A stretch of 64,000 nt of DNA. Origin: Thiocapsa marina 5811 (lineage in GTDB: Bacteria > Pseudomonadota > Gammaproteobacteria > Chromatiales > Chromatiaceae). The notes beneath the pieces were generated by a model. It had not been told where the DNA came from, ran no database searches, and worked only from the letters and a program-made list of their open reading frames with translations. This document shows positions 6,682 through 57,994 of the stretch, piece by piece; positions within the stretch are counted from its first letter, which is position 1, and every line of letters begins with the position of its first letter. The position numbers and the translations under genes were made by a program. The stretch covers positions 124,001 to 188,000 of the forward strand of contig NZ_AFWV01000007.1 of assembly GCF_000223985.1 (NCBI RefSeq). The letters are read 5' to 3'.

Positions 6682-7431
6682 ATGTGTACCTTCGTCATTC
6701 TGAGGCGTCCCGGTCATGCCTGGCCGGTGCTGATCGCGGCCAATCGTGACGAGATGCGTACCCGGCCGAGTCTTGCGCCGGGAAGGCACTGGCCGGACCG
6801 CGCGGAGGTGCGTGGCGGACTCGATCTGGAGTCCGGCGGGAGTTGGCTCGGGGTCAACGATCATGGCCTCGTCGCCGCGGTCATGAACCGTCAGGGTACG
6901 CTCGGACCTTTGCCCGGCAAGCGCAGTCGCGGCGAGCTGGTCTTGGAGGCACTCGACCATGCCGAAGCCTCCGAGGCGGCCGGGGCGTTGGCGGATCTCG
7001 ATCCGGCCGCCTATCGCCCCTTCAATCTGGTGGTGGCGGATCCGCGCTCGGCCTATTGGCTGCGTCACGGAGGCGACGGCGACATCCGCGTTCATCCGAT
7101 CGCCGCCGGTCTGCACATGTTGAGCGCGAGCGAGCTGGACGATCCCGGCCACCCGCGCATTGCAGCGTATCATCCGAGGTTCGCCGAGGCGCAGCCCCCG
7201 GATCCCGACGCCGACGAGTGGACGGCCTGGCGGGATCTGCTGGCATCGAATCGGTCCGGTCCCGACGTGGATCCCGAGGCCGCCATGACGTTCGAGCGCT
7301 CCGACGGGTTCGGCACGCGTTCCGCAGCGCTGATCGCCATCCCCCTCTATCCCGGTTACGGCCGCGGGCCGATCTGGCTGCATGCGCAGGGGAGGCCGGA
7401 TCAAACCCAGTTCCTCCGAGTCCTCCTTTAA
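6682..7431 (+). CDS. NRDE family protein (TANGO2-like)
   Basis: This 249-residue protein begins MCTFVILRRPGHAWPVLIAANRDE; Cys2 and the AANRDE motif define the NRDE/TANGO2 superfamily. Homologues occur in bacteria and eukaryotes, where they have been linked to haem handling and lipid metabolism; the biochemical activity is unsettled. Conserved SGGSWLGVNDHGLVAAVMNR is visible near residues 51-73. No signal peptide. The start is supported by GAGGGG about 8 nt upstream. The stop codon TAA is formed by the terminal repeat of the element at 7427-7513. hemC follows downstream on the same strand. Confidence 0.85.
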   Translation: MCTFVILRRPGHAWPVLIAANRDEMRTRPSLAPGRHWPDRAEVRGGLDLESGGSWLGVNDHGLVAAVMNRQGTLGPLPGKRSRGELVLEALDHAEASEAAGALADLDPAAYRPFNLVVADPRSAYWLRHGGDGDIRVHPIAAGLHMLSASELDDPGHPRIAAYHPRFAEAQPPDPDADEWTAWRDLLASNRSGPDVDPEAAMTFERSDGFGTRSAALIAIPLYPGYGRGPIWLHAQGRPDQTQFLRVLL

Positions 7432-7513
7432 CCGCGTCCGGAGCGGGGCGGGATGGCTCGGCTTGCGGCGGCGTCCTGCAGATCGCTCGGGTTCCGGCCT
7501 GGATGCGGTTTAG
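7427..7513. repeat. 87-bp TIR element, copy A1
   Basis: Arms TTTAACCGCGTCCGG and (reverse complement of the right end) CTAAACCGCATCCGG enclose a G+C-rich interior without an ORF. The left arm contains the stop codon of the NRDE gene. An 18-nt AT-rich spacer separates it from copy A2. Confidence 0.8.
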
Positions 7514-7531
7514 GATAATAGAAACAATTCG

Positions 7532-7618
7532 TTAAACTGCATCCGCTGCGTCGTTCGCTGGTGCCTGCGGCGTGAAAACGTCGCTTGAGTCGCCATGTCG
7601 CTGCGAGACGCAGTTTAG
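7532..7618. repeat. 87-bp TIR element, copy A2
   Basis: The left arm TTAAACTGCATCC pairs with a right end GACGCAGTTTAG. The C-to-T change in the left arm is matched by G-to-A in the right arm, so the arms stay complementary while differing from the family consensus. It lies in the leader region upstream of hemC; bases 7619-7760 between it and hemC show nothing else I can name. Confidence 0.78.
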
Positions 7619-7760
7619 CCGGTTCGAAACCCCGCGTCGGCTGTGCCACAATCTCACCCTTTCGCCGCCTACGTGGTCCAACGGTCTCGTCCGCGCGGGC
7701 GTGATCGTACGTCCCTGTCTCAGACCCTGGCTCCGAACCAGAGCCCCTTTAGGATCCACC

Positions 7761-8687
7761 ATGTCGAACATCATGCGTATCGCCACCCGTAAATCTCCCT
7801 TGGCCATGTGGCAGGCCGAGCATGTCTCCGCACTGTTGACCAAGCTCCATCCGGGGCTCGAGATCCAGATCGTCGGGATGACCACCAAGGGCGACAAGAT
7901 CCTCGATGCGCCCTTGGCGAAGGTCGGTGGAAAGGGGCTCTTCGTGAAGGAGCTGGAGCAGGGGATGTTGGAAGGCGTGGCGGACATTGCCGTGCACTCC
8001 ATGAAGGACGTCCCCGTGGAGTTTCCGGAGGGCCTTCATCTGGCCGTGATCATGGATCGCGAGGACCCGCGCGATGCCTTCGTGTCGAACCGCTACGAGG
8101 GCCTCGATGATCTTCCGCAAGGTGCCTGTGTCGGCACCTCTAGCCTGCGTCGCCAATGTCAGCTCGCCGACCGGCGTCCCGACCTGCGCATCGAGCCCCT
8201 GCGCGGCAACGTCAACACCCGTCTCGCCAAGCTCGACGCGGGTGAGTACGACGCCATCATCCTGGCCGCCGCCGGTCTGATGCGCCTGGGCTTCGAGTCG
8301 CGCATCCGCAGCCGGATCGCACCGCAGGACAGTCTGCCGGCGATCGGCCAAGGCGCCATCGGGATCGAGTGTCGCAGCGCGGACCCGCGCGTCAATGATC
8401 TGATCGCGCCGCTGCATCACCGCGACACCGCGGACCGGGTGCTCGCCGAGCGCGCGATGAACGCGCGTCTGCACGGTGGCTGTCAGGTCCCGATCGCCGG
8501 GCACGCTCTGATCGAGGGCGACCGACTCGTCCTTAAGGGGCTGGTCGGGACGCCGGACGGATCACGGATCCTCCGGGCCGAATCCACGGGCCCGCGCGAG
8601 GACTGGGAGGCGATCGGGACGCGGGTCGCCGACGATCTGCTCGCGCAGGGCGCCGGCGAGATCCTGAGTGCACTCCAGGAGCCGTAA
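7761..8687 (+). CDS. hemC: Porphobilinogen deaminase (hydroxymethylbilane synthase)
   Basis: HemC condenses four porphobilinogens to hydroxymethylbilane in tetrapyrrole synthesis (haem, sirohaem, and bacteriochlorophyll if the host is phototrophic). The start ATG at 7761 has AGGA 6 nt upstream and gives [22 protein letters not shown]; a longer reading frame to 7572 runs through a repeat element and is not credible. Key features are [17 protein letters not shown], the Arg-rich substrate site [11 protein letters not shown], and Cys241 in LHGGCQVP, which anchors the dipyrromethane cofactor. The 308 residues are normal length. The stop codon overlaps the hemD start by 1 nt. Confidence 0.97.
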
Positions 8688-9460
8688 TGGCAGCCCCCTG
8701 TGATCTCGGCGGGCGCGGCGTCCTGGTGACCCGGCCCGCAGCCCAGGCGGATGGGCTCTGCCGTCTGATCGAGGCGGCCCACGGCCGCCCGATCCGTCTG
8801 CCCACCATCGAGATCGCGCCGGTCGCCGATCCGGGCGAGGCGGCCGCACTGCTGGCGCAGTCATGGGACATGCTCTATTTCGTCAGCCCGAATGCGGTCG
8901 AGCAGGCGCTCGCCTTGGTGCCGGACGGTGCGTGGCCGGGGGTCGAGACCGTCGCTGCCGTCGGGCGAGCGACAGCACAGGCGTTGACCGACGCGGGGCG
9001 TGCGCCGGAGCTGGTCCCGGAGCAGCGCTTCGACAGCGAGACACTGCTCGCGATGCCCGAGCTGGCCGACATGCGCGGCCGCCGGGTGCTGATCGTCCGC
9101 GGCGAAGGCGGGCGTGCCTTGTTCGCCGATACGCTCCGCGCCCGCGGTGCCGAGGTGCTTTTTGCCGAGGTCTACCGTCGTCTGCGCCCGGCATTCGATC
9201 CCGCACCGCTGCTCTCGCGTTGGACCGACGACGTGGTCATGGTCACCGTGACCAGCGACGAGATCATGCTGAATCTGATGGAGATGCTCGGCCCCGCGGG
9301 CCGTGCTCCCTTGCTCGCCACGCCCTTGGTGGTCGTGGCGGAGCGCACCGCCGAGAAGGCCCGAGGGTTGGGGTTCGCCCGTGTGGAGGTCGCCGAGCGT
9401 GCCGAGGATGCGGCGATCGTCCGCGCCTTGTGCGCGCTCTGCCCGGCTGCCGCCGATTGA
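8687..9460 (+). CDS. hemD: Uroporphyrinogen-III synthase
   Basis: HemD cyclises hydroxymethylbilane with inversion of ring D to give uroporphyrinogen III. The 257-residue protein is a two-domain HemD with GRGVLVTRPAAQADGL at the N-terminus, FVSPNAVEQAL, VGRATAQAL, LIVRGEGGR and VTSDEIMLNL. Translation is coupled to hemC by TAATG. The hemX and hemY genes that often follow in gammaproteobacteria are absent; instead the gene converges with the histidine kinase gene 13 nt away. An orphan half-arm of the TIR element (CTAAACCGCG, 9463-9472) lies just after the stop. Confidence 0.94.
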   Translation: MAAPCDLGGRGVLVTRPAAQADGLCRLIEAAHGRPIRLPTIEIAPVADPGEAAALLAQSWDMLYFVSPNAVEQALALVPDGAWPGVETVAAVGRATAQALTDAGRAPELVPEQRFDSETLLAMPELADMRGRRVLIVRGEGGRALFADTLRARGAEVLFAEVYRRLRPAFDPAPLLSRWTDDVVMVTVTSDEIMLNLMEMLGPAGRAPLLATPLVVVAERTAEKARGLGFARVEVAERAEDAAIVRALCALCPAAAD

Positions 9461-9473
9461 GCCTAAACCGCGT

Positions 9474-12400
9474 TCAGTCGGAAGCCTGATCGGTTCTCCG
9501 CGCTCCGGTGCCTTGCGGTTCACCGTCGTCATGGCCGGGCAGCCAGAGTGCCAGGGTCCGGTAGAGCTCGACGGTGTCGATCGGCTTGGCCAGGTGCCCG
9601 TTCATGCCGGCCTCTCGCGCGCCGTTGCGATCGATTTCCATCACGGCAGCCGACAGGGCGATGATCGGTAGATCGGGACGCTGCGGACGAATCCGTCGGG
9701 TGGCCTCGAAGCCGTCCATCATCGGCATCTGCAGGTCCATGAGGACGAGATCGAAGTCTTGCGTCGTTGCCAGCGCGACCGCCTCGATGCCGTTTTCGGC
9801 CAGGGTCACGACAGCGCCGGTACGCTGAAGCATGCGTTTCGCGACCTCCTGGTTCAGTGCATTGTCTTCGACCAGCAGAATCGCCGCACCTGTAAACGAG
9901 GGTATCGGCGCACGGGCCGTCGGCGCGGTCCTGCCGGGATGCGGCTTTTCTCCATGGGCTTCGAGCAGGGTGTCGAGCAGGGCCGACGCGGTGACCGGTT
10001 TACCCAGGAAACCGCTGAGCCCCGAGCGTTCTTTCGGCAGATCGTCGCGGTTATAGCCGCTGACGATGATCGCCGGTGTTTCGGCGCCGGTCAGGCGGCC
10101 TTCTTTGCGCAATCTGAACAGCTGCCGGGTGGCCTCCAGACCGTCGAGATCACCGGGCATCTTCCAGTCCATGAGGATGAAGTCGAAGGGCCGGCCGGCC
10201 CGTTCGGCCTCGATGACGGCCTGCACCGCAGCGGCACCGCTCGCGGCCTCGTCCACTCGGCATCGCCAACTCTGAAGGATCTCGCGGAGCACGGTTCTGG
10301 AAACGGCGTGATCGTCGACGACCAGGACTCGAGCGCCGGCGATCTTTCGGAGATCGCGCGGTTCGCTGTCCTCGCGCGAGACGGGCAGCAGCAGATCGAA
10401 CGAAAAGACACTGCCTGCTTCGGGCGCGGAGGCGACCGTAAGGCGGCCGCCCATGCGCTCGACCAGTTTTCGGCTGATCACCAATCCCAACCCGGTGCCG
10501 CCGTACTTGCGTGTCGTGGAGCTGTCCGCCTGCGAGAAGGCTTGGAAGAGGCGATCGATCTGTTCGGTGTCCATGCCGATCCCGGTGTCCGCCACCTCGA
10601 AGCGCAGCTTGACCTGAGCGGTGTCTCCGCCCAGTCGGGCGATGCGAATCTCGACGGTCCCCTGTTCGGTGAATTTCAGTGCATTGGCGAGCAGGTTGGT
10701 CAAGACCTGGCCGAGGCGCAGCGCGTCGCCGAGCAGCGTTCGGGGGACATCGGGGGACACGCGGAAAACAAGCTCGAGGCCCTTCTCACCGGCGGCGGAG
10801 CCGAAGAGCGTCGCCATTTGGTCGAGGAGCTCGTCCATTCGAAACGGACGCGACTCCAGGTCCAGCTTGCCCGCCTCGATCTTGGAATAATCCAGGATGT
10901 CGTTGATGATCCCGAGCAGCAGGCGCGATGAGCCGTGAATCTTGCCTAGATAGTCGCGCTGCTCGTCGTTCAGATCGGTTCCCAACAGGATCTGGCTCAG
11001 CCCGATCACGGCGTTCATCGGCGTGCGGATCTCGTGACTCATATTGGCCAGGAACTCGCTCTTGGACCGGCTGGCGGCCTCCGCTTGCTCGCGACTGAGT
11101 CGCAGCGAGTCCTCCGTTTCGCGTCGTTTCTGAACGTTGACGAGCATCTGTGCAAACACCGTCAGCAGCCGCTGCTCGGTATCGGAATAACGATGATGCC
11201 TGCGCACCGAATCGAAACCGACGAACCCTCGGCAGCGCGGTCCGTCGATCATCGGCACGGCGATCGCGCTCTTTATCCCTTGAGGCTCGAGCACCTGTCT
11301 GACGCTGCTCTCGGGCGCGAGCGAGAGCACATCGGGGACGTAGACGGTGCCTCCTTCTCGATGGGTTGCGATCCAATCCGGGATCATCTCCATCGGAACG
11401 GCCTGCAGGGTATCGATCTGAGGCTCGATCCCGGAACCACACCACTCGTGTGTATTGGTGACGATCTGCCGCTCGAAAACGTAGTCGAAGATGTAGGCCC
11501 GATCCGCACCGACGAAGTCCCCAAGATGCCCCAGCGAGGTCTCGATCACCGAATCGACCCGGTCCAGCGGCAGGCTGATGTAGGTCGAGGAGATCTCCAT
11601 CAAGAGACCCTGCAGGCGGGTCTCTCTCTGCAGCGCCTTTTCGCTGTCCTGAAGATGGGCGAAGGTGTCCAGTCGCTTGATGGTGCTGCCGATCACCTGC
11701 ACGAGAAGCTGCAATAAGCCGATGTCGCTTTTTGCCCACGCATGCCGGGGGTGCAGGGCGTCGAAGCCGACGAAGCCGCCGAGCGTGCCGCCGCTGGCGA
11801 CCATCGGCAGGCAGAGGAGCGACCCGATGCCTCGGGTAAGAAACTCCGCCTTTTCGGCGCCCGCATCGTCCGGGAGGGCGGCTACGCCGGGGATCAGGAG
11901 CGGCTCTCCGGTTGCCATCCGAGCCTTCCACCAAGGCAACTGGTCGACCGGCTGGTCTTGCGAGCGTTCCATCCGAGACGGTGTGCCGGGGGCGCACCAT
12001 TCATGGGTATTGGTCATCCGCGAGCCGTCCTCCGAGACACGGAACAGGTAGGCCCTCTCGACCTCGAGGAGCTCGCCGAGCTTTTGGAGTGCCTGATCGA
12101 GAATGGCGTCGAAGTTGTCCGGGCGTGCCCTCGCGAAACGCGCGGAAATCGCGGCGGCGGCGCTTTCGAGCTCCAGCCGTCGTGCGGTCTCGGCCTGCGC
12201 ACGCTTGCGTTCGGTCACGTCGCGTGCAGCGGCATAGATCAGCTCCCCGCTGGGGAAGGAGCGCCACTCGATCCACCGATAGCTGCCGTCGCGACACCGA
12301 TAGCGATTCTCGAAATCCAGGATCGCACCGTGCGCGTCGAGGCGCCGGGTCGCCTCGCGCGTCGCCTCCCGATCCTGCGGATGCACGAAATCAATGAACG

Positions 12401-14639: not shown

Positions 14640-14753
14640 GAGGGTGTCGGTCCGGGGCAGGTCATGGGGCGGCGCGGCGTCTGGAAGGCGATCGCCGAGT
14701 CCGCGCGACGAGCCGGCGTGGGCACCATCGCCCGCCGCTCCGTGTTCTGCCGA

Positions 14754-16184: not shown

Positions 16185-16190
16185 GTCGGG

Positions 16191-16766: not shown

Positions 16767-16782
16767 GAGGTCTCGGTGCCCG

Positions 16783-20734: not shown

Positions 20735-20821
20735 TTAAACCGCGTCCGGAGTGATTAGGCGATGGTTTTGGGTTTGCTGGGCCTCATCTACAACTGCGGC
20801 CGCAGTGGAGACGCGGTTTAA
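20735..20821. repeat. 87-bp TIR element, copy C1
   Basis: Perfect 12-bp arms TTAAACCGCGTC / GACGCGGTTTAA. It lies between the divergent reductase and SDR genes and is followed by a 19-nt AT-rich spacer (starting TAATAAAATTTT) and copy C2. Confidence 0.85.
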
Positions 20822-20840
20822 TAATAAAATTTTCAATGAT

Positions 20841-20927
20841 TTGAATCGCGTCTATCCCGGTGTGTCGGGTGTTTTCGATTCCGCGGTGCCAGGTCCGACA
20901 CGGATCCGCACCTCGGACGCGATCCAA
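20841..20927. repeat. 87-bp TIR element, copy C2
   Basis: A diverged copy: left arm TTGAATCGCGTC, right end GACGCGATCCAA, nearly complementary to each other and both different from the consensus. The position exactly 19 nt after C1 and the length of 87 bp identify it as a family member. Confidence 0.72.
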
Positions 20928-25382: not shown

Positions 25383-25483
25383 GCCGTAGGGTGGACAAGC
25401 GCCGTAGGGTGGACAAGCGCAGCGCAGTCCACCAACGCCGGCGCAGTCTCGGTGGACTTCGATAAAGCTCGTCCACCCTACGG
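25383..25483. repeat. Palindromic GTAGGGTGGACAAGC repeat, copy K
   Basis: A tandem start GCCGTAGGGTGGACAAGC (25383-25400, again from 25401) is followed by GCAGCGCAGTCCACC, then GGTGGACTTCG and the closing arm CTCGTCCACCCTACGG. The arms are inverted. It is nearly the same as copy L (60678-60760). It lies between ubiD and the TIR element D. Confidence 0.8.
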
Positions 25484-25524
25484 GCCCGGATACCCGGCCT
25501 GCAGGGCCCGCTGAAAGTCCATAC

Positions 25525-25610
25525 TTAAACCGCCCTGCGCCATTGGTAATGGGGGCCTCGGCATGACGACACGCCCCGACATCGGCGTTCACGCTCCGAG
25601 CGCGGTTTAA
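25525..25610. repeat. prlC: 86-bp TIR element, copy D
   Basis: Left arm TTAAACCGC, right end GCGCGGTTTAA; the arms are shorter than in C1. The right arm contains the TAA stop of the oligopeptidase gene (25607-25609, minus strand). Confidence 0.75.
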
Positions 25611-28465: not shown

Positions 28466-28552
28466 TTAAGCCGCGCCCAGCGCGGTATGTGAAGTTCTTG
28501 GATGGGATCGGCCCAAGCAGGCTTGATGACCGCTGGAGCTTGCGCGGCTTAA
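28466..28552 (+). repeat. 87-bp TIR element, copy E
   Basis: Arms TTAAGCCGCGC / GCGCGGCTTAA: both arms share the A-to-G change relative to the consensus, so complementarity is kept. The interior is clearly similar to copy F and to the reverse complement of G, sharing CGCGGTATG and GGGATCGGCC. It lies between the divergent CNP1-like gene and smc. Confidence 0.85.
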
Positions 28553-35869: not shown

Positions 35870-36682
35870 ATGATAGATTCCCGCCTGATCCACCAGGGTG
35901 CTGCCCGACGGCGCCGTTATCTGCGTCTGACCCTCTGTCTGGCGGCGGCCGGTCTGTGCCGAGATGCGATTGCGCGGGATCCTGCGACGCCGCGGGAACC
36001 CGAGTGGTCTTACTCGGGCGTGGCGGGTCCGGATCAATGGGGCGATCTCGGCGGGGCCTTCGAGTCTTGTGCACGGGGCGAGCTGCAATCGCCGATCAAT
36101 ATCGTCGAGACCCAGCGCGTGACCTATACGCCCTTACTCTTTCGCTATCGCTCGCAGCTGCTCGAGGCCGAGAACACCGGGCGCGGGGTCCGTTTGATCT
36201 CGCCCCCCGGCAGCGCGCTCGTGGTCAGGGGGCAGGCCTACGATCTCGTCGAGTTCAGCTTCCACGTTCCGGGCCTCCATGCCTTCCAGGGGGTCGCCGC
36301 GGAGGCCGAGATTCACATGCTGCATCGTGACGGGCAGGGTGGCTATGCCATCGTCGCCGTGCCGTTGCGGGCCGGCGAGCGCGAGAATCGGATTCTCAAT
36401 CGGATCCTGGAGTATCTTCCGACACAACCGGGCGAGCGTGTACGACAACGTCAGGTGGGGATCAATCCGCTCTTCCTGCTGCCCGTCGATCGCAGCTACT
36501 ACAGGTATACCGGCTCGCTTGTCGCACCGCCCTGTACCGAGCCGGTACTCTGGTTTGTCTTTCGCGAGCCGCTCGAGGTGAGCGCCGAGCAGATCCAGCT
36601 CATCGCAAGGGCCACCGGTGCCAACGCCCGACCGATCCAACCGCTCAACGGCCGTCCCGTCTTCTCGCTGTTCCGCTATTGA
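35870..36682 (+). CDS. Alpha-carbonic-anhydrase-like exported protein lacking a zinc ligand
   Basis: A 270-residue alpha-CA fold protein with a basic N-terminus and a probable export signal. WSYSGVAGPDQWGDL, QSPINI, the NTGRG segment, SLVAPPCTEPVLWFVFREPLEVS and the C-terminal NGRPVF are alpha-CA landmarks. In active enzymes the first two zinc His occur as QFHFH; here the motif is EFSFH, so the first ligand is Ser130, with His132 and His149 (EIHMLH) kept. The catalytic Thr pair after SL is Val218-Ala219, and the proton-shuttle His position after NNG is not His. It is probably a non-catalytic carbonic-anhydrase-related protein. The TGA stop lies in TIR element F. Confidence 0.88.
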   Translation: MIDSRLIHQGAARRRRYLRLTLCLAAAGLCRDAIARDPATPREPEWSYSGVAGPDQWGDLGGAFESCARGELQSPINIVETQRVTYTPLLFRYRSQLLEAENTGRGVRLISPPGSALVVRGQAYDLVEFSFHVPGLHAFQGVAAEAEIHMLHRDGQGGYAIVAVPLRAGERENRILNRILEYLPTQPGERVRQRQVGINPLFLLPVDRSYYRYTGSLVAPPCTEPVLWFVFREPLEVSAEQIQLIARATGANARPIQPLNGRPVFSLFRY

Positions 36683-36765
36683 ACCGCGCCCCTCGCGGTA
36701 TGCGTTCTTTTTGGCTGGGATCGGCCTCGGCGGACCTCGCGGCCGTTGGAGCGCGCGCGATTTAA
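36679..36765 (+). repeat. 87-bp TIR element, copy F
   Basis: Left arm TTGAACCGCGC, right end GCGCGATTTAA. The left terminus provides the TGA stop of the carbonic-anhydrase-like gene (36680-36682). The interior resembles copy E. A 19-nt spacer with a T-run separates it from the inverted copy G. Confidence 0.8.
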
Positions 36766-36784
36766 GAGGTTGTTTTTTAGCACC

Positions 36785-36871
36785 TTAAACCGCGCCAGCT
36801 ACAACAATCATCGAGTCTGCCGGGGCCGACCCCATCCGAATACATCACATGCCGCGCCGGGCGTGGTTTAG
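36785..36871 (-). repeat. 87-bp TIR element, copy G (inverted relative to F)
   Basis: The reverse complement aligns with E and F along the interior (CGCGGCATG, GGGGTCGGCCC). Its right arm carries the TAA stop of the pentahaem cytochrome gene (36868-36870, minus strand). Confidence 0.8.
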
Positions 36872-43505: not shown

Positions 43506-44858
43506 GTGGAGGTGATCGCGGATTGGGTCGGTACGATCAACGGGCTCGTGTGGGGCCCGCCCATGCTGGTTCTCATCCTGGGAACCGGGCTCTTCCTGAT
43601 GGTCGGCCTGCGCTTGATGCCGATCCTCAAGCTCGGATACGGCTTCAAGAGATTGTGGGCCGGACGGCATTCTCAAGGCGAAGGCAATATCACGCCCTTC
43701 AATGCATTGATGACGTCGCTCGCGGCCACGGTCGGAACGGGCAACATCGCGGGTGTGGCCACGGCGATTGCGATCGGCGGCCCCGGTGCCCTGTTTTGGA
43801 TGTGGTGCACGGCGCTCGTCGGCATGGCCACCAAGTATGCCGAGGGCGTCTTGGCAGTGAAATACCGCGAGGTGGACGAGAAGGGCAACTATGTCGGCGG
43901 CCCCATGTATTACATCAAGAACGGGCTGGGTCGCCGCTGGCTCTGGCTCGGCACCGCCTTCGCGATCTTCGGGGGGCTTGCCGGATTCGGGATCGGCAAC
44001 ATGGTCCAGGCCAATTCGGTATCGCACGCACTCAGCGGGAGCTTCGCAATCCCGGAGCTCTGGTCGGGGATTGCGATGGCCGTGGTGGTCGGCCTGGTCC
44101 TGATCGGCGGTATTCGTTGGATCGCCCGGGTCGCCGGCAAGCTGGTTCCCTTCATGGCAATCGCTTATGTCATCGGCGGTCTCGTGGTGTTGGCCTTCAA
44201 CATCGAGCAGATTCCGCAAGCCGTCTACCAGATCGTGCTGCATGCCTTCTCGCCGACGGCCGCGGCGGGCGGGTTCGCGGGCGCCACGCTGATGATGGGC
44301 ATCCAGATGGGCGTGGCGCGGGGCATCTTCTCCAACGAGGCGGGCCTGGGCAGCGCTCCGATCGCGCATGCAGCGGCGCAGAGCAACGATCCGATCCAGC
44401 AAGGCACGGTCGCCATGCTCGGCACCTTCATCGACACCATCATTATCTGCACCATTACCGGGTTGGTCATCATGGTCACGGGGGTTTGGACGAGCGGAGA
44501 GACGGGGGCGGGACTGTCGTCCGCGGCATTCAGCGCCGGGTTGCCGTCGGTCGGCGGTTATATCGTCACCTTCGGGCTCGCCCTCTTTGCCTTCACGACC
44601 ATTTTGGGGTGGAGCGTCTACGGTGAACGCTGTATGGAATACCTGTTCGGGATTCGTGCGATCGTTCCCTTCCGGCTGGTTTGGGTCGCGGTCATTCCGG
44701 TCGGGGCGACGCTCGAGCTCGATTTCATCTGGCTGGTTGCCGATACACTCAATGCCCTGATGGCGATTCCCAATCTGGTCGCATTGCTCTTGCTCAGCCC
44801 GATCGTCTTTCGGATGACGCGTGAGTATTTCGCGGATCCGATCAACCGCCGAGCCTAG
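43506..44858 (+). CDS. Alanine/glycine:cation symporter (AGCS family)
   Basis: Sodium- or proton-coupled uptake of alanine or glycine. The 450 residues make about 11 TM helices; the family signature TVGTGNIAGVATAIAIGGPGALFWMW is present (about 77-102), as are GGPMYYI and GIFSNEAGLGSAPIAHAAA. It starts at a GTG, with GAGGAGG 7 nt upstream; no ATG is better placed. The TAG stop is the first triplet inside TIR element H, which fills the space to the convergent bolA. Confidence 0.95.
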   Translation: MEVIADWVGTINGLVWGPPMLVLILGTGLFLMVGLRLMPILKLGYGFKRLWAGRHSQGEGNITPFNALMTSLAATVGTGNIAGVATAIAIGGPGALFWMWCTALVGMATKYAEGVLAVKYREVDEKGNYVGGPMYYIKNGLGRRWLWLGTAFAIFGGLAGFGIGNMVQANSVSHALSGSFAIPELWSGIAMAVVVGLVLIGGIRWIARVAGKLVPFMAIAYVIGGLVVLAFNIEQIPQAVYQIVLHAFSPTAAAGGFAGATLMMGIQMGVARGIFSNEAGLGSAPIAHAAAQSNDPIQQGTVAMLGTFIDTIIICTITGLVIMVTGVWTSGETGAGLSSAAFSAGLPSVGGYIVTFGLALFAFTTILGWSVYGERCMEYLFGIRAIVPFRLVWVAVIPVGATLELDFIWLVADTLNALMAIPNLVALLLLSPIVFRMTREYFADPINRRA

Positions 44859-44940
44859 ACCGCGTCCAGCGCGAGATGCTCGCTTACGCGTAAGCTCGCC
44901 GTTTGATGCAGCTATGGCATTTAGCGGGGACGCGGTTTAA
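44855..44940. repeat. 86-bp TIR element, copy H, filling a convergent gene gap
   Basis: Left arm CTAGACCGCGTCC, right end GGGACGCGGTTTAA. The left end holds the symporter TAG (44856-44858) and the right end the bolA TAA (44937-44939, minus strand). The element is therefore exactly the whole intergenic region, and it separates two convergent genes like a terminator. Confidence 0.8.
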
Positions 44941-45260: not shown

Positions 45261-45380
45261 CTGGGCTCCGGTTCGGATCGCCCGTTCGGGCGCGTCCTCG
45301 TGAACTATGGCCCGTTCCTCGCCGACACAAGCGTGGATGCCGCCGATGTGTCCGCAGGCGACTCGACCGCTTTCCGGAGG

Positions 45381-47506: not shown

Positions 47507-47509
47507 TGA

Positions 47510-47596
47510 TTAAACCGCGTCCGGAGTTTTCGTTTTTGTGGAGTGGGGGCTTGCGGTCTCGTCGCTCCACGGAGCGATTGGCGCGACGCGGTTTAA
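47510..47596. repeat. 87-bp TIR element, copy I
   Basis: Perfect 12-bp arms TTAAACCGCGTC / GACGCGGTTTAA. It directly abuts the trkA start codon region and is followed by a 19-nt A/T-only-rich spacer (AATAATAAAAATTAAATAC). Confidence 0.87.
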
Positions 47597-47615
47597 AATA
47601 ATAAAAATTAAATAC

Positions 47616-47703
47616 TTGAAGTGCGTCAGTGCCAAGCTCTGTAGGTACGCCGGACCTATGTTGCAGGTGCCGACCTGGACATGCCCCGCCTGACGCACTT
47701 CAA
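47616..47703. repeat. 88-bp TIR element, copy I2 (divergent arms)
   Basis: Arms TTGAAGTGCGTCAG / CTGACGCACTTCAA are perfectly complementary over 14 bp, yet differ from the family consensus at several positions on both sides. The right arm contains the TGA stop of ntrX (47700-47702, minus strand). Confidence 0.8.
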
Positions 47704-49070: not shown

Positions 49071-51277
49071 CGTTTTTCATCCTGTTCTCGGTCCTCGGGC
49101 ATGGACCTGGCCCCCTGCCGGATCGGCAGGCGGATCCGAATCATCGCGCCTTGACCGGTATTCTCGACCTTGATGATACCGCGGTGTTCCTCGACGATCT
49201 TCTTTACGATGGCTAAACCCAGACCGGTTCCTTTGGCCTTCGTGGTGACGTAGGGCTCGAACAAACGCTCGAAGAGGTGCTCTTCGAACCCCGGCCCGTT
49301 GTCGGCGACCTCGAGCTCGACGAGCGGCATGCCGTCCTCGCGCGCGACCCGCGTCGTCACGGCGATCCGCGCGTCGGCCCGTCCGTCCATCGCCTCCTGC
49401 GCGTTCTTGATCAGATTATGAACCACTTGACGCAAGCGCAACGGATCGCCGCGCACCTGCACCCCCGGTGCACCGAGATCGACCTCGAGCGCGCTCGTGC
49501 CGGCGCTGCGATACAGGTCCAGCACCTCTTGGACGATCCGGTCGAGCTCCAAGGGCTCGGCGCGGATGTGCGGCGTGCGGGCATAATCGGAGAAGTCGTT
49601 CACCATCGCCTTCATCGCCTCGACCTGTTGGACGATGGTCCGGGTCGAGCGATCGATGATCTTCGCGTCCGCCTCGTCGGCCTTGGCGAGCAGCTTGTGG
49701 CGCAGGCGCTCGGCGGAGAGCTGAATCGGCGTCAAGGGGTTTTTGATCTCGTGGGCCAGGCGCCGGGCCACCTCGCCCCAGGCCGCGTTGCGCTGTGCGG
49801 TAATCAGCGAGCTGATGTCGTCGAAGACCACGACGTGACCCCGTTGCTCGCTGTCCGGGAGCGGTAGCGGACTGCCGCGGCACATCAGTGTCTGCCGGTT
49901 CTCGCCGCGATCGAGCTCGATCTCGGCACGCCAATCCTCTCCGGCGAGGATATGGCTGCGCACCGTCTCGGTCCAGGGAGTGAGCCAGGGCAGCTCGCGC
50001 TCCACGCGCGAGAGCTCCGGTTGTGCATCGTCGGCGAAGGCAAGCGACAGGATCTGCCGCGCCGCCGGGTTGGCGGTCCGCAGCCGCTGATCGGCATCGA
50101 ACGCGATGACGCCGGACGACAGGCGCCCGAGGACCGTCTCGAGATAGTTGCGCTGGGTCTCGACGGCCTGCTGACTGCGGTTCGCGGCATCCCGTGCCCG
50201 GGCGATGCGCCGGGTCATCGCGTTGAACGACGCGACCAGGAAGGCGAGCTCGTCGTCGTGCTTGGGCAGCGGGAGCTGTTGCTCGTAGTCGCCTTCGGCG
50301 ATCGCGCGGGTGCCGCGGGCGATGTCCGCAACCGGCGCGACGAGGCGTCGTGCGATATGAAACGCGGCGATCACTGCAGCCATGACGCCGAACAGGAGCA
50401 CCAACGACAGGGTCAGAGAGAAGCTCAGCTTCAACGACTGACGCAGATACGCCAGCTCCGTGTAGCGGTTGTATGCGCCCTCGAGGCGCTCCGAGAGCTC
50501 GGTGATGCGTGCCGAGGTCGGGAAGATCGCCTGCATCTTCATGTCGCGCCCACGCGGGTCCTGCACCAACACCCGCACGATCAGCTCGCCGCCGAGATCG
50601 CTTTCCAGGCCGACATAGTTGTTGCCGGCGCGCACGCTCTGCTGGATCTCGCGCTCGGCCTGATTCGGAACCAACTGGGTCGGATCCTCGTTGGCGTTGC
50701 CCAGGACCTGACCGCCCGCGGTGTAGACGGTCAGCTCGATGGCCCCGGCCTGACGCCGCAGATTGTCCAGACTCAGCGCGATCGCGGTCGAGGAGCGATC
50801 CTCGATCCCCGCGATGAGCTGCTCGGTGTAGCGTGCGAGGACCCGCTGATTGAGATCGAGCGAGGCTTGATTCAAGACCAGCGCGTCCTGCATGGCTTGG
50901 CCGATCTCCACGTCGAACCAGCTGTCGATCCCGCGCAGCAGGAACCCGAGCGAGAAGTAGTAGACCACGCCGACCGGCAGCAGGGAGACGAGTACGAAGA
51001 GCACCAGGATCCGCCCGGTCAGGCGCGATCCTGCGGCCTGCTGCCGGTAGCGGCGCACCAGCTTCACGATGTTGACGATGACGAGAACGGCGAGCGCGCC
51101 CAGACCGCCCAACACCACCGAGAGCAGGGGCACAAAGGCCCGGCTCAGCGTCTCGGAGTTCTCGACCGCATCGCGCATCAGCACCAAGACGACGAAGAGC
51201 GCCAGGATCAATGCCGCGACCGGCAAGGCGCCGAGTCCGCGTAGGCGTGCTAAGGCGTTAAGGGCCACTTGCTCCAC
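49067..51277 (-). CDS. ntrY: NtrY-type sensor histidine kinase
   Basis: Membrane sensor kinase of NtrYX, 736 residues. TM helices lie at about 18-35, 49-72 and 89-108; a periplasmic region follows to a TM near 290-312. Then come HAMP (ARRLVAPVADIARGTRAIAEGDYEQ), PAS (about 378-480), HisKA with phospho-His in RRLAHEIKNPLTPIQLSAERL, and HATPase with DNGPGF and GTGLGLAIVKKI. The system is linked to nitrogen, redox or envelope responses in different bacteria. The start overlaps the DUF4390 gene's end by 28 nt, so the two are translated from one message. Confidence 0.95.
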   Translation of the reverse strand: MEQVALNALARLRGLGALPVAALILALFVVLVLMRDAVENSETLSRAFVPLLSVVLGGLGALAVLVIVNIVKLVRRYRQQAAGSRLTGRILVLFVLVSLLPVGVVYYFSLGFLLRGIDSWFDVEIGQAMQDALVLNQASLDLNQRVLARYTEQLIAGIEDRSSTAIALSLDNLRRQAGAIELTVYTAGGQVLGNANEDPTQLVPNQAEREIQQSVRAGNNYVGLESDLGGELIVRVLVQDPRGRDMKMQAIFPTSARITELSERLEGAYNRYTELAYLRQSLKLSFSLTLSLVLLFGVMAAVIAAFHIARRLVAPVADIARGTRAIAEGDYEQQLPLPKHDDELAFLVASFNAMTRRIARARDAANRSQQAVETQRNYLETVLGRLSSGVIAFDADQRLRTANPAARQILSLAFADDAQPELSRVERELPWLTPWTETVRSHILAGEDWRAEIELDRGENRQTLMCRGSPLPLPDSEQRGHVVVFDDISSLITAQRNAAWGEVARRLAHEIKNPLTPIQLSAERLRHKLLAKADEADAKIIDRSTRTIVQQVEAMKAMVNDFSDYARTPHIRAEPLELDRIVQEVLDLYRSAGTSALEVDLGAPGVQVRGDPLRLRQVVHNLIKNAQEAMDGRADARIAVTTRVAREDGMPLVELEVADNGPGFEEHLFERLFEPYVTTKAKGTGLGLAIVKKIVEEHRGIIKVENTGQGAMIRIRLPIRQGARSMPEDREQDEKR

Positions 51278-51840: not shown

Positions 51841-53219
51841 GACGCCGGACGCTCGATCAGCGCGAAATAAAAGCCGTCGTTCGCCCCGTCCCGCGGAAGC
51901 AATTGGATTCCGTGCGAGAGCGCACGGCTCCCGGGCACTGCGATCGGACATTCGCGTGCATCCGGATGGCGCTCCAGAAAGGCGGCGATACGGTGCTGGT
52001 TCTCGTCCGCGATCAATGAGCAGGTGGCGTACAGCAGTCGCCCGCCCGGGGCGAGCAGCGGCCAGGCCGCGTCGAGGATCCGATCCTGCAAGGCGCACAA
52101 CGCGGGAATATCCGAGTCGCGTCGCAGCCATTTGATGTCGGGATGACGGCGGATCACGCCGGTGGCCGAGCAGGGCACGTCGAGCAGGATGCGGTCGAAG
52201 GGTTTGGCGCTCCAGCTGCCTCTCGGCTCGGCCGCGTCCCCGAGTGCGACCTCGGCGCTCAGGCCGAGTCGCGCGAGCGTCTCGCGGATCGATTTCAGGC
52301 GTGCCGGCGCATTGTCGATGGCGAGCAGGTCGAGCCGGTTCTCGGCGCGCTCGAGGATGCCCGCGGTCTTTCCGCCGGGCGCGGCGCAGGCATCGAGGAC
52401 GCGCTGTCCGGGGCGCGCATCCAGCAGATCGGCCGCCAGTTGGGCGCCGCCGTCCTGCACCGAGACCAGCCCGGCCTCGAAGCCGGGCAGCTCGTGTGTC
52501 GCGCGCGGCTGGTCGAGCGTCAGACCCATCTCGCAGCCCGGGATGGGGCGCGCCGTGATGCCTGCGGCGGCGAGCGTGCCGAGATAGCTGCGCCGGTCGG
52601 TCCGGGTTCGGTTCACGCGCAGGCTCATGGGCGCGCGGGCGTTGCTGGTCCGCACGATCTGCTCCCACTCTTGTGGCCAGTTCTCGCGCAGGCGATCGAG
52701 CAGCCATTCCGGAAAGAGCCAGCGCACGGCGGGTTCTCGATCGACATCGGCCAGAAGTGTCTCGCGCTCGCGCAGAAACCGCCGCAGCAGTGCGTTCACC
52801 AAGGCCGCCTTGTCGGGCTTGCCGATGAGTCGACTCGCCTCCACGGTGGCGGCGACCGCGGCGTGGTCGGGCGTGTCCATCGCGACGAGCTGATACAGGC
52901 CGATCAGGATCAGTGATTCGAGATCCTTGTCCGCGGGCTTGACCGGGTGATTGAGCAGGCGTGCGACCAGCGCTTCCAGGCGCGGCAGGTTGCGCAGAGA
53001 CCCGTAGACCATCTCTTGCGTGAGTGCGCGCTCGGCGGGCGCCTGCGAGGCCAAGCGTTTCTGCTCGAGCACACGCGTGAGCGATTGGCCGCGACCGCGC
53101 ACGCCGAAGAGTGCCAGTGCAGCGGCTGCACGGGATTCGGCGCCGACGGGATGTCTTGCCGGGCTCGGCGCCCGCGGCCGGCGCTCAGCCAAGCCGAGCG
53201 CCGTCCAGTGAGCGGGCAT
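51837..53219 (-). CDS. rsmB: 16S rRNA m5C967 methyltransferase RsmB
   Basis: Methylates C967 of 16S rRNA with S-adenosylmethionine. The 460 residues contain a NusB-like N-terminal domain (about 35-165) and a Rossmann methyltransferase domain with [14 protein letters not shown] (SAM site), [18 protein letters not shown] (catalytic Cys in PC) and LLYATCSL (second conserved Cys in TC). The start at 53219 gives [20 protein letters not shown] and overlaps fmt by 35 nt; a frame to 53324 exists but adds non-homologous residues. It is part of def-fmt-rsmB. Confidence 0.95.
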
Positions 53220-54150
53220 TGAGGAAATCCACGGCCGCCATCGCACGCTTGCCGGGCGGCTGAAGGCGAACGATGCGCACGATCCCTCGGCCGGCGGCGA
53301 CCTCGATGCCCGATTTGCCGGCACCGATCACGGTCCCGGGCGCGGCCTGCGTCGCACGCTCGGCGTCGATCTCGGCGGACCAGATCCGCAGCGTCTCGGC
53401 GTCGAGACGTGTTTGAGCGACGGGCCAGGGGTTGTACGCGCGGATCATGCGACCGATGTGCTCGGCAGGCTGGTGCCAGTCGATGATGGCCTCGTCCTTT
53501 GTGAGTTTGTGTGCGTAGGTGACCCGATCCTCGGCTTGCGGCTCGGGCATCAGCGATCCGTCGGCGATGCCCGGCAAGGCATCGATCAATGCACCTGCAC
53601 CGAGCGCGGCGAGTCGGTCGTGCAGATCTGCGCCGGTGTCGCGCGGTCCGATCGGTGTCGCGACGCGATGATAGACGGGGCCGGTATCCAACCCGGCCTC
53701 CATCTGCATGATGCAGACGCCGGTCTCGGTGTCGCCGGCGAGCAATGCGCGTTGGATCGGCGCCGCGCCGCGCCAACGCGGCAGCAGCGAGGCATGGACG
53801 TTGACGCAGCCCAGACGCGGCGCGTCCAACACGGAGACCGGCAGAAGCAGCCCGTAGGCCACGACCACCATCAGGTCGGCCTCGAAGGCGGCAAGCCGCG
53901 CGACCGCGTCCGGATCCTTCTTGAGGCTCTCTGGCTGAACGACCGGCAGGCCGCGCGTCAGGGCGAGCGCCTTTACCGGGCTTGCCTGGAGCTGGCGGCC
54001 GCGCCCGGCCGGTCGGTCCGGTTGGGTGTAGACGGCGACGACCTCCAGCGGCGGCATTTGCGCGCGATCAGCCGGCGCATCCAGCAGTGCGGCAAGGCTC
54101 GGAACGGCGAAGTCGGGCGTTCCCGCGAAGATGATCCTCAGGGGTTTCAT
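53185..54150 (-). CDS. fmt: Methionyl-tRNA formyltransferase
   Basis: Formylates initiator Met-tRNA with 10-formyl-tetrahydrofolate. The 321 residues begin [53 protein letters not shown] contains the catalytic Asn/His and the SLLPRWRG loop. [14 protein letters not shown] starts the C-terminal tRNA-binding domain. The true start is ATG 54150; the frame extending to 54402 lies antisense to nothing coding and overlaps def, so it is rejected. It follows def by 34 nt. Confidence 0.96.
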
Positions 54151-54184
54151 CGCGTCGGATCGCCGTTCGGACCGGCGGCCTTCG

Positions 54185-54718
54185 TCACAAGACACCTCGA
54201 CGCTGCTCGGGCTCGCTCGCCGAATGGCGCTGCTCCTTCTCGAGCTTGCGCCGAATGCGCTGGCGCTTGAGCATCGAGATGTGGTCGACGAAGAGCTTGC
54301 CGTCGAGATGATCGATCTCGTGTTGGATACAGACCGCGAGCAGTCCGTCGGCATCGAGCGTGAAGGGCTTGCCTTCGCGATCGAGCGCCTGGACACGCAC
54401 ACGCTCCGCGCGCTTCACCGTCTCGAAGAAGCCGGGGACCGAGAGGCAGCCCTCGTCCATCTGCTCTTCGCCTTCGCGCGAGAGGATCTCCGGATTGATC
54501 AGGCACAAGGGTGCGTCGTGGCTCTCGGAGACGTCGATCACGACGACTCGGCGCGGCACGTTGACCTGAATGGCGGCCAAGCCGATACCGGGTGCGGCAT
54601 ACATCGTCTCGAGCATGTCGTCGACCAGCCGCACGGTGTCGGCATCGACACGCGCGACCGGGATCGCCTTGCGGCGGAGTCTTGGGTCCGGGAAGGTCAG
54701 GATATCGAGCTTTGCCAT
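54185..54718 (-). CDS. def: Peptide deformylase
   Basis: Removes the formyl group from nascent proteins. The 177 residues carry all three motifs: GIGLAAIQV (about 45-53), EGCLSV (metal Cys) and HEIDHLDG (metal His pair and catalytic Glu). The start ATG at 54718 gives [18 protein letters not shown]. The C-terminus has a basic helix ([20 protein letters not shown]) that may contact the ribosome. It heads the leftward def-fmt-rsmB-DUF4390-ntrYX block and is divergent from the LysM gene. Confidence 0.97.
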
Positions 54719-54874
54719 CGGGATGTCGTCTGGAAAATCTGTTCTCGGGGATCTCGTCTCTCGCGCGATCTCGTCTTGTGCCTGATCGAATCTCTCGGGG
54801 ATCTCGTCCCGCGAGCGACCCGCAGGAGAGACGTCGGGTCGGGAGTCGAGTAGAAGGGGTCGGGCCGCATGCGC

Positions 54875-54893
54875 TAGTATCCGCTTAATACTA
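54875..54893. promoter_or_regulatory. AT-rich dyad between def and the LysM gene
   Basis: TAGTAT, 7-nt spacer, ATACTA: a perfect 6-bp inverted repeat in the divergent region. It could provide -10-like boxes in both directions or an operator. A 16-nt direct repeat TCTCGGGGATCTCGTC (54743-54758 and 54793-54808) lies on the def side. Confidence 0.3.
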
Positions 54894-54943
54894 CACCCCG
54901 AAATGGGGCCGGGTGAATCCGTTTCGAGCATCCGGGAGGTCCG

Positions 54944-56164
54944 ATGCGTGTTTTGAACCTTCGTTTCACCCTCGCAGACGTCGTTCTCGGCGCCCTGATC
55001 GCGTCGATCGCGATAGCCCCGGCATCGACGGTGCGTGCGGTCGAGCTCGCCGAGGACGCACCCGAGGTCTACGAGGTGCGTCCCGGGGATACCCTCTGGT
55101 CGATCGCCGGGCGTTATCTGCGCGACCCCTGGCTCTGGCCCGAGATCTGGCAGGCCAACGACGATCCGGGCGATCCCGATCTCATCTATCCCGGAGAACG
55201 GTTGCGTCTGGTGCATGTGGAGGGTCGCCCGCGTGTCGTGCGCGACACCGCCCCCGGGGCGAGCGGCGATATGCGTGTCGTGCGCCTGAGTCCGCGGGTG
55301 CGGGTCAGCGCGCTCGAGGCGCCGGTGCCGATGATCCCCGTCGCCTCGATTGCGCCTTTCCTCACGCAGCCCTGGGTGGCGGACTCGGACGCGATCAAGC
55401 GAGCGCCTTACGTCGTGGGCTTCGGCGAGGATCGCACCATCGCGGGGCCGTCGGATGACGTCTTCGTGCGTCGCATCGATACGGCCGCGGTCGGCGCGTT
55501 CCAGATCCTGCGCCCCGGCGACGCGCTGCGCGACCCGGACACCAACCGCATCCTGGGCTACGAGGCCACCTTCGTCGCCAACGCCATGCTCGAGCGTGTC
55601 GGAGACCCCGCGATCCTGCGGGTCACCCGATCCGAGCGCGAGGTCGCCATCGGCGACCGCGTCATCCCGGCCTCGCTCGAGGCGCCTCTCGAGAATTTCT
55701 TCCCGCGAGCGGCGCCCGCCGGAATCCGCGGTCAGATCCTCTCGGTGATGAACGGGGTGTCTCAGATCGGTCAGTACGACATCGTGACCATCAATCGGGG
55801 TTCGGACGATCGGCTTCAGCCCGGTCACGTCTTCGAGATCTTTCGGGGCGGGGAGCAGGTTCGCGACAAGGTCCGCGCCGGCGACATGAATTGGAACTGG
55901 AAGAGCGAGAGCCCCCTGACCGGTTCCTTCTGGCTCGGCAACGAGTATTCGGTGAAGGGCTGGAGCGAGAGTCCGACGGACTCGAGCGCGCCCATCCCCC
56001 TGCATGCCGACATCGGTCGCGATCGCGGGACCTATATCCGACCGATGCAACGCACCGGCCTGCTGATGGTCTTTCGATGCTTCGATCACGTGAGCTTCGC
56101 GCTCGTGCTCAATGCCGACCGGGCCATGAGTGTCGGCGACCGGGTCGTCCCGCCCGCTCGGTGA
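54944..56164 (+). CDS. LysM-domain envelope protein upstream of dprA
   Basis: A 406-residue exported protein with a signal peptide (about 1-31) and one LysM module (about 42-90; [31 protein letters not shown] and IYPGERLRL) that binds peptidoglycan. The remaining 300 residues are beta-rich and repeat short RPGD-type turns, without catalytic motifs. Homologues lie immediately before dprA in many gammaproteobacteria; their function is unknown. Its 3' end overlaps the annotated dprA start by 35 nt. Confidence 0.9.
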
Positions 56165-57323
56165 TGGGCTCGATCGTCTCTTGAGCGTCGCCTCGGACTC
56201 GATCGCGGACTGGATCGTCCTGATCTCCGCTCCCGGCATCGGGTCGCGCACGGCGACCCGATTGATCGAGCGCTTCGGCACCCCGCGCGCGGTCGCGGAT
56301 GCCCCGCGACAGGATCTCGCCGCGGCGGGGATCTCGCCCGAGGCGATCGCCGCGCTCAAGCAGCCGGATACCGCGGCGCTCGAGCGCATCCTTGCGTGGT
56401 CGGACCAGCCCGATGCGTTCGTGCTGACCCGCGCCGATGCGCGCTATCCGCCGCTGCTCGCCGAGATCCCCGACGCCCCGCTGTTGCTGTACGTGCGCGG
56501 CGACCCGGAGCTGCTCGCCGAACCGCAGCTCGCCGTGGTCGGCAGCCGCAATCCAACCCCGTCGGGCCTCGAGATCACCCGCGACTTTGCGCGACGGCTT
56601 GCCGCGGACGGTCTGTCGATCACCAGCGGCTTGGCGCTCGGCGTCGACGGAGCCGCTCACGCGGGCGCGCTCGAGACGGGGCGAACCATCGCCGTTCTCG
56701 GTACGGGTCCGGATCTGGTGTATCCCGCGACCCACCGCGATCTGGCCCGGCGGGTCGCGGAGCGCGGTGCGTTGGTCAGCGAATTTCCACCCGGCCAGGG
56801 GCCGTCTGCGCGGAATTTCCCGCGGCGTAATCGGATCATCAGCGGGCTGTCCGTCGGTGTTCTGGTGACCGAGGCAGCCCTGAAGAGCGGCTCCTTGATC
56901 ACCGCACGCTTCGCGCTCGAGCAGGGGCGCGACGTCTTCGCCGTCCCCGGCTCCATCCGCAATCCCCTTGCGCGCGGCAGCCACGCACTCATTCGCGACG
57001 GTGCCAAGCTGGTCGAGGACCCCGCGGAGATCCTCCTCGAGCTGGCCCCGATGCTGCGCAATCTGCTCGCGGCCTGCCCCGGCGAGGCGTCCGTGGCGCC
57101 CGGTGAGGAGCGCGCCGCGGCCGGTCGAGGCGCGACCACGACACTCGATGCAGACTATCGCGCCTTGCTCGATGCGATGGGATTCGATCCGGTGGCGCCC
57201 GACGAGCTGATCGCCAGCAGCGGCCGCTCGGCCCGGGAGGTCTCGTCCATGTTGTTGGTCCTGGAGCTGGAGGGTCATGTATCATCGGCCCCTGGAGGCC
57301 GCTTTTGCCGGCTCGGTTCTTGA
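56130..57323 (+). CDS. dprA: DNA-processing protein DprA (Smf)
   Basis: Binds incoming single-stranded DNA and loads RecA during transformation. The 397 residues comprise a SAM-like N-terminal part ([20 protein letters not shown]), the Rossmann-like core ([82 protein letters not shown]) and a C-terminal winged helix (about 330-390). The start is uncertain: ATG 56130 lies inside the LysM gene, and TTG 56181 is an alternative just after it. The gene is conserved even in non-competent bacteria, so it does not prove competence. Confidence 0.94.
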
Positions 57324-57385
57324 GCGGAAACGTCCCGGTTGACCACGATGGAACGCCTGAGTGGAATACCGGTGCAGTTCGCTCC

Positions 57386-57405
57386 CGTCAGCCTTCGGGC
57401 TGACG
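57386..57405 (+). terminator. UUCG-capped hairpin between dprA and smg
   Basis: CGTCAGCC, TTCG, GGCTGACG: a perfect 8-bp stem closed by a very stable tetraloop, 20 nt before the smg start. There is no T-run. It may be a weak terminator, an RNA-processing site or an mRNA stabiliser. Confidence 0.5.
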
Positions 57406-57424
57406 CCGCCCACGAGGTTGGCTG

Positions 57425-57901
57425 ATGTACGAAAATATGGTCGATGTGCTGATCTATCTCTACGAGAACTACATGGACGGCGAGGGTCAGCCCCCGGCCG
57501 ATCAAGTTGCGCTGGAGGACGAGCTCGCTCAGGCGGGCTTTACCCCGACCGAGATCCAGAAGGCACTGCTTTGGCTCGACGAGCTGGCCGAAGGTGTCGA
57601 TGTTCCGCAGTATCACGACCACACCCTCGGCTCCATCCGCATCTACAACGCGACGGAGTCAACCAAGCTGGAGGTGGAGGCGCGCGGTCTGCTGCTGTTC
57701 TTGGAGCAGAACGGGATTCTCGACCCTGTCAGCCGCGAGCTGGTGATCGACCGCCTGCTCGCGATCGATCAAGCAACGGTGGGTCTCGACGAGGTCAAAT
57801 GGGTCGTCTTGCTGGTCTTGATGAATCGTCCCGGTCGGGAGGATGCCTTCTCCCAGATGGAGGATCTGGTCTACAACGACGAGCCGGTCTACCTCCACTG
57901 A
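57425..57901 (+). CDS. smg: Smg protein (DUF494)
   Basis: A 158-residue helical protein of the Smg/DUF494 family: MYENMVDVLIYLYENYMD..., ELAQAGFTPTEIQKALLWLDEL and LEQNGILDPVSRELVIDRLLAID are diagnostic. The function is unknown; it sits between dprA and topA in many gammaproteobacteria. The ATG follows GAGG about 7 nt upstream. The TGA stop is followed by ACCGCAT and then element J, a partial arm duplication. Confidence 0.95.
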   Translation: MYENMVDVLIYLYENYMDGEGQPPADQVALEDELAQAGFTPTEIQKALLWLDELAEGVDVPQYHDHTLGSIRIYNATESTKLEVEARGLLLFLEQNGILDPVSRELVIDRLLAIDQATVGLDEVKWVVLLVLMNRPGREDAFSQMEDLVYNDEPVYLH

Positions 57902-57907
57902 ACCGCA

Positions 57908-57994
57908 TTGAACCGCGTCAGGCATGACCTGCTGCGTTGTCGAGTCGGCCCGGCGCCTCACGCTCAAGCAGGCGTTGGAGTCGACGCGGTTCAA
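57908..57994. repeat. 87-bp TIR element, copy J
   Basis: Perfect 12-bp arms TTGAACCGCGTC / GACGCGGTTCAA; both arms share the A-to-G / T-to-C change versus copies C1 and I. It lies directly after smg. The upstream TGAACCGCA at the smg stop looks like a fragment of another arm. Confidence 0.85.

Follow-up and report, generated by a model that had tools for sequence, protein, structure and literature searches.

The 64,000-nucleotide stretch of Thiocapsa marina 5811 analysed here (contig NZ_AFWV01000007.1, positions 124,001 to 188,000; called the window below and numbered from 1) carries twelve copies, A to L, of a short inverted-repeat unit. All twelve had been listed in an initial annotation made from the sequence alone, and all were confirmed at the coordinates given there, with lengths of 86 to 88 bp. 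Four pairs enclose an AT-rich gap of 18 or 19 bp, which that annotation overlooked. Pair AB (unit A, 7427-7513; centre of 18 bp, 7514-7531; unit B, 7532-7618) precedes a hemC-like gene and contains, in the left arm of A, the stop codon of a TANGO2-like gene (6682-7431). Pair CD (unit C, 20735-20821; centre of 19 bp, 20822-20840; unit D, 20841-20927) is located between divergent genes. In pair GH (unit G, 36679-36765, plus strand; centre of 19 bp, 36766-36784; unit H, 36785-36871, minus strand, F-type) the left arm of G holds the stop codon TGA of a carbonic anhydrase gene and the right arm of H that of a cytochrome gene. Pair JK (unit J, 47510-47596; centre of 19 bp, 47597-47615; unit K, 47616-47703) lies between codirectional TrkA-like and sigma-54 activator genes, the stop codon TGA of the latter being in the right arm of K. 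The remaining four units are alone: E (25525-25610), whose right arm holds the stop codon of an M3 peptidase gene on the minus strand; F (28466-28552, plus strand), an F-type unit; I (44855-44940, plus strand, type I), with convergent neighbours whose stop codons are both in its arms; and L (57908-57994), which follows a DUF494 gene.

Units of this kind are abundant in the genus. The window's genome contains the exact-arm pattern 35 times. Of ten further genomes of the genus, seven contain it 19 to 73 times and three not at all; the reversed control was never found, neither in the window's genome (0 occurrences) nor in the others. In the family, a 23-base end was present exactly in 21 of 194 sampled genomes, with up to 230 occurrences per genome. 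Among the matches listed for the exact-arm pattern, the named carriers were Thiocapsa, Thiobaca, Thiocystis, Lamprocystis and a Chromatiaceae metagenome-assembled genome. When 895 kb were scanned with relaxed arms, 299 matches were obtained, compared with 3, 6, 9 and 4 matches for four permuted arms; the sequence scanned comprised the window and 112 loci fetched for exact arms and is therefore enriched in copies. Of the 299 matches, 264 were 86 to 88 bp long. Units less than 40 bp from a sequence end and duplicates with identical flanks were dropped before counting. Among 339 unique units, 192 were of 87 bp, 77 of 86 bp and 51 of 88 bp, and an enlarged set comprised 463 units in 2.25 Mb. According to gene calls by a simple, purpose-written program based on codon usage, an overlap of more than 30 bp with a predicted gene was seen for one of the 339 and five of the 463 units, and the earlier statement that the copies contain no open reading frame (ORF) therefore holds nearly everywhere. 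The family is short, non-coding and dispersed, as a miniature inverted-repeat transposable element (MITE) should be. Rfam yielded no RNA match at gathering score in the window, and no description of the element was found in the open-licence literature, judging by titles and opening abstract lines among the matches listed.

The 87-bp unit is half of an element, the canonical form of which is about 195 bp long and consists of two units flanking an AT-rich centre, usually of 18 to 21 bp. Among the 339 unique units, neighbours separated by 13 to 25 bp were found 119 times; in 55 of these pairs the distance is exactly 21 bp, with the strong consensus AATTTTATATTTTTTAATATC. The first bases are TTAAACCGCGTCCAGAGCGAGATGCGTAATTTTCA in half 1 and, reading inward from the outer end, TTAAACCGCGCCCAGCGCGGTATGCGATGTTTTTGG in half 2; each half was closer to its own consensus in 66 of the 68 pairs with a recognizable 21-bp centre, a set that leaves out centres with fewer than 14 consensus positions. 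The same 68 pairs have terminal inverted repeats, with the consensus outer ends TTAAACCGCGTCCAGAGCG and TTAAACCGCGCCCAGCGCG, and every end tip has an inverted copy within its own unit of the pair. The 463 units form 304 blocks, of two units (153), one unit (148) or three units (3), and next to some of the one-unit blocks a partner or centre is present that fails the scan. At two loci a pair in one genome corresponds to an interval the size of a lone unit in a relative, F being one of them (lone in the window, a full pair at the same place in the related genome G004), so that lone units look like derivatives of pairs by deletion.

Units within a block may also differ in kind between species. 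In G003 and G010 the left unit of GH is of another subfamily, the subtype in G010 being a different one. Such an other-subfamily unit fits precisely between the same flank and the segment that follows, at the place of 36679-36765 in G003 and G010 and at that of 25525-25610 in G003. This suggests that, at the places of G and E, copies have exchanged halves or insertion has recurred. The interiors of three window copies had been reported to align throughout. This is so for those at 28466, at 36679 and, in reverse, at 36785 (identity 0.68-0.76; shuffles had a mean of 0.53 and a maximum of 0.66), and no such match was obtained for the copy at 25525, which had been counted with them.

Empty sites in relatives, which the initial annotation had named as a check, exist and reveal a duplication of TA. 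Blocks were testable for empty sites if they had 300-bp flanks, and the regions of G010 had been chosen partly for known copies; an orthologous empty site was found for seven of the 304 blocks, namely six pairs and one lone unit. Two junctions are base-perfect. At the first, G004 contains a full 195-bp pair and reads GTG-CTAAACCGCG...CGCGGTTTAA-GGCG, where the window (51250-51253, plus strand), G001, G002, G010 and G007 read GTG-CTAA-GGCG; G008 is likewise empty and reads CTAG-GGCG. At the second, the pair of locus L057 lies within the CTAA of locus L028. A third clean locus, its right flank slightly diverged, is provided by a 182-bp pair of G010 in a CTAG that is empty in six sequences, and that in the window (1256-1259, plus strand) contains the stop codon of gene 12-1259. 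All three share the form N-TA-AACCGCG...CGCGGTT-TA-N. At the outer edges of 155 pairs, TA was present at both ends in 117, of which 112 fit YTA...TAR. Insertion is at TA with duplication of the TA, mostly at YTAR targets, and this is the behaviour of IS630-type elements, which duplicate TA and prefer YTAR or CTAG-like targets. Target duplications of 2 to 10 bp outside the arms did not exceed expectation except at 5 bp (3 observed, 0.23 expected).

Turnover is high at the loci of E, F, H and I: in several species these units are absent or have been rebuilt. At the place of 44855-44940 in G004, another inverted-repeat element of about 270 bp, with TACCTCGTTCCACC... at both ends, is inserted at a CTAG, and this site seems to have been struck by two unlike elements. 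At the place of 36785-36871, G008 has a type I unit split by an inverted-repeat insertion with the ends AACCTAGATCCGG and CCGGATCTAGGTT.

A candidate for the parental transposon was found through the PF13358 domain, detected at six places in the window's genome and 48 in the genus. Among the 30 loci examined for these 48 places, only L152, in G006, has right-oriented arms on both sides with at most two mismatches: there, CTAAACCGAGCCTAGCCCGAG and CTAAACCCCGCCCAGAGCGGGATACGTAATTTTCATG enclose an intact transposase ORF of 317 aa, the kind of gene between matching ends that the initial annotation had suggested looking for. NCBIfam model NF033545 assigns the protein to the IS630 family (155 bits, cut-off 100). 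Relatives of it at E<=1e-40 occur in 12 of the 194 family genomes, and the ends of their elements, stray internal matches set aside, have the form (C/T)TAAACC. Seven elements with both ends recognized were compared with the unit consensus (G006, G160, G073, G129, G171, G175 and G096, those of G175 and G096 being shortened or broken). All 14 ends score 18.0 to 33.5 against half 1, and shuffles have means of 7.5 to 8.6 and standard deviations of 1.6 to 2.0; at the side far from the transposase stop codon, all seven ends are closer to half 1 than to half 2. An inner inverted copy of the tip was not clear within 200 bp at any of the 14 ends (best 7-8 of 12).

The outer ends of the pair thus match those of the roughly 1.3-kb IS630-family insertion sequences of Chromatiaceae, and we consider it very probable that the family is a non-autonomous mini-transposon, a MITE of IS630 type. 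Of the two kinds of mobile element initially offered together, MITE-like and repetitive extragenic palindrome (REP)-like, the former is borne out by the TA duplication, the empty sites and the IS630 ends, and the latter is not. Movement in trans, proposed at the same time, would mean that an IS630-type transposase recognizes the outer ends and moves the pair as a whole. Intergenic positions and stop codons would be the main places where insertions persist, and lone units would arise by deletion between the repeated arms.

The relation to stop codons, another feature overlooked initially, can be read from the arms directly. At 448 stop-facing unit edges, the stop codon occupies arm positions 2-4, thus reaching four bases into the unit, in 145 cases, and in three others it reaches 2, 3 or 5 bases inside. 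The window stops at E, G, H, both sides of I, and K are in the usual register, and that in A is one base off. Since an insertion at the TA of TAA or TAG leaves TA followed by the first A of the element, and so again a stop codon (TAA), the arms often supply the stop codon of the neighbouring gene, and an insertion into a stop codon may survive because the codon is restored. This offers a simple route to a harmless landing in genes.

Several observations weigh against the IS630-type MITE or limit what it accounts for. Three of the pair loci with empty sites agree only roughly, and the single lone-unit case is not clean; 38 of the 155 pairs lack TA at both ends. The insertion-sequence ends beside the transposase stop codon are mixed, with two closer to half 2, four closer to half 1 and one tie, which bears on the origin of half 2. 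Transposases of this clade were absent at E<=1e-40 from 10 of 11 genus genomes, including the window's own, a result that bears on present activity. Finally, the pairing of the arms in old copies is not explained by ordinary decay.

Covariation between the arms, described in the initial annotation, was confirmed in the twelve window copies: 93.0% of cells are paired, compared with 86.9% after shuffling (0 of 500 shuffles as high) and 27-39% for slid partners. Cells changed on both sides numbered 11 (2.9 in shuffles; 0 of 500), and pairs with a two-sided change five (2.5 in shuffles; 21 of 500); further pair types, at 10, were no better than the shuffled 9.9 (331 of 500). The outcomes said to count against the element, few copies without arms in relatives or covariation as in shuffles, therefore did not occur. 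In the global set, 207 cells were changed in both arms and 128 in one, a comparison biased by the scan, which demands 9 of 12 pairs, and orthologues defined by their flanks were used instead.

Blocks AB, CD, JK and L are present in the six other genomes with 85-90% identity, and 40 of the 42 orthologous units pass the scan; of the more distant genomes, G006 is without a unit at CD and the others are without the flanks. In comparisons excluding the window, the arms of the four blocks are 0.923 and the interiors 0.767 identical, with short flanking gene pieces at 0.870 (A) and 0.919 (L). Six of 84 arm pairs (A6, A7, J5, K5, K11 and L3) have changed on both sides and still pair, the compensatory changes in K being found in G007 and G002; 25 vary without a two-sided change and 53 are invariant. 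None of 2000 shuffles reached six and slid partners gave 0-2, a significance that the shuffles overstate, the species being related. Eleven or all of the 12 pairs are kept in 32 of the 42 units, and pairing breaks off sharply thereafter (0.88 at pair 12, 0.28 at pair 13). Of tandemly duplicated arms, found for A in G004 and G001 and for K in G004, a single copy was aligned.

In these old copies either the stem is constrained by selection or one arm has been recopied from the other, and the arms would stay complementary by one of these two routes; an RNA function is not claimed. Selection would apply if the fixed copies had become functional stem-loops of transcripts, with a role in mRNA stability or processing. 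The retention of the four blocks, the greater identity of the arms and the compensatory changes all point in this direction, and it may be so, without our favouring it. Mismatches oriented by transcription, orthologues included, comprise 36 G.U and 26 A.C (p 0.25) and thus lack the clear strand preference that selection on RNA predicts. Since the flank of a unit includes its partner, grouping by flank homology merged the loci too far (101 groups), and its one-per-group means of 8.5 G.U and 8.9 A.C, likewise without strand preference, are not relied on. Folding an alignment of 120 exact-arm copies returned only the arm stem, with no conserved structure in the interior, for the full set; of three overlapping subsets, two gave the same result and one, of 31 copies, added short weak helices. 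Moreover, CD, one of the four blocks, lies between divergent genes and has no counterpart in G006, and the kinship of the species inflates the significance of the compensatory changes.

The lack of a clear strand preference is what would be expected if the arms were kept complementary by occasional recopying during replication, through template switching at the quasi-palindrome, with no function involved. Tandem duplications of the arm tip, 17-18 bp long, occur at A (7427-7513) in G004 and G001 and at K (47616-47703) in G004, with three copies in G001, and suggest error-prone replication of the arms. Recopying might, however, be expected to spread inward, and pairing stops after 12 pairs; nor does it predict the retention of the four blocks in the six closer genomes. 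We regard it as somewhat unlikely.

That the units are bidirectional transcription terminators is very improbable. They are stem-loops with a T run nearby, and convergent contexts account for 100 of 406 units, compared with 112 of 645 intergenic intervals longer than 90 bp. Among these 406 units, which exclude those without a called gene on both sides, the contexts are otherwise 125 ++, 123 -- and 58 between divergent genes (-+). The orientation of the T runs led us to reject this reading: between codirectional genes, 35 run along and 32 against transcription. The 58 units between divergent genes and the empty sites, which are plain insertions, also speak against it. In their structure-conserved arms and variable loops the units resemble integron attC sites, whose arms carry an AAC/GTT core, and as pairs they resemble bacterial interspersed mosaic elements; REP elements moved by a Y1 transposase (REP-associated tyrosine transposase, RAYT) are short palindromes without target duplication. 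Both the attC and the REP/RAYT readings can practically be dismissed, as they are contradicted by the TA duplication and the IS630 ends (a Y1 transposase was not looked for), and the arms of unit K, TTGAAGTGCGTC/GACGCACTTCAA, have no AAC/GTT triplet in several species.

With the IS630-type MITE as the source of the family, the structured RNA or protein site of strict length, offered initially as an alternative, becomes superfluous for the family as a whole and is a candidate only for the old covarying copies. Tentatively, and with more doubt than confidence, we propose that mini-transposon ends, each a self-contained stem-loop, have repeatedly been kept, once they had landed in stop codons or intergenic DNA, as stem-loops of fixed length by compensatory mutation; remnants of the transposon would then serve as RNA or cruciform elements next to housekeeping genes in a group of species. 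For a repeat that is abundant between genes in Thiocapsa and related bacteria, the analysis provides the unit, the rule of target choice and the parental group of insertion sequences, and the result argues against reading the copies as terminators. Since some loci are common across species and others polymorphic, the family lends itself to asking at what point a transposon hairpin acquires a function, and whether recopying by itself can produce arm covariation, which is often read as evidence of structured RNA.

Other repeats were also observed. A second inverted-repeat family of about 82 bp, CGTAGGGTGGACAAGCGCAGCGCAGTCCACC...GTCCACCCTACGG, is present in the window at 25385-25484 and 60677-60759, and a sequence resembling it lies near L in G004. 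GTTGTC hexamer repeats occur in intergenic DNA near the F or L loci in G002, G008 and G010.

Among the systems compared, RUP of pneumococcus together with IS630-Spn1 is the nearest precedent, and Correia/NEMIS of Neisseria comes second. RUP, present in about 110 copies, is like the Thiocapsa element a short intergenic element with a TA target and ends similar to those of an IS630-family insertion sequence, and IS630-Spn1 has been proposed to move it (PMC2229807, PMC3049150). By description, RUP is one 107-bp unit, in contrast to two stem-loop units around an AT-rich centre. Correia/NEMIS shares the TA at its termini, the small size and the inverted ends with the element, and some of its RNA stems are cut by RNase III (PMC2229807, PMC10969869). 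It is set apart, again by description, by its 155- and 107-bp forms, and the passages describe no internal inverted copy of the tip. The IS630 elements of Chromatiaceae share the ends (C/T)TA-AACC.CG.C..AG with the mini-element and differ in being about 1.3 kb long when complete, in having a transposase gene, and in having no internal inverted tip copy at the tested ends. Thiohalocapsa PB-PSB1 is a purple sulfur bacterium. In this organism, MITE-like tandem stem-loop repeats are reported to match the ends of remote insertion sequences (PMC10907252); by description, they differ from the Thiocapsa element in lying at retroelement loci and in corresponding to the insertion sequences IS_223, IS411 and IS_238.

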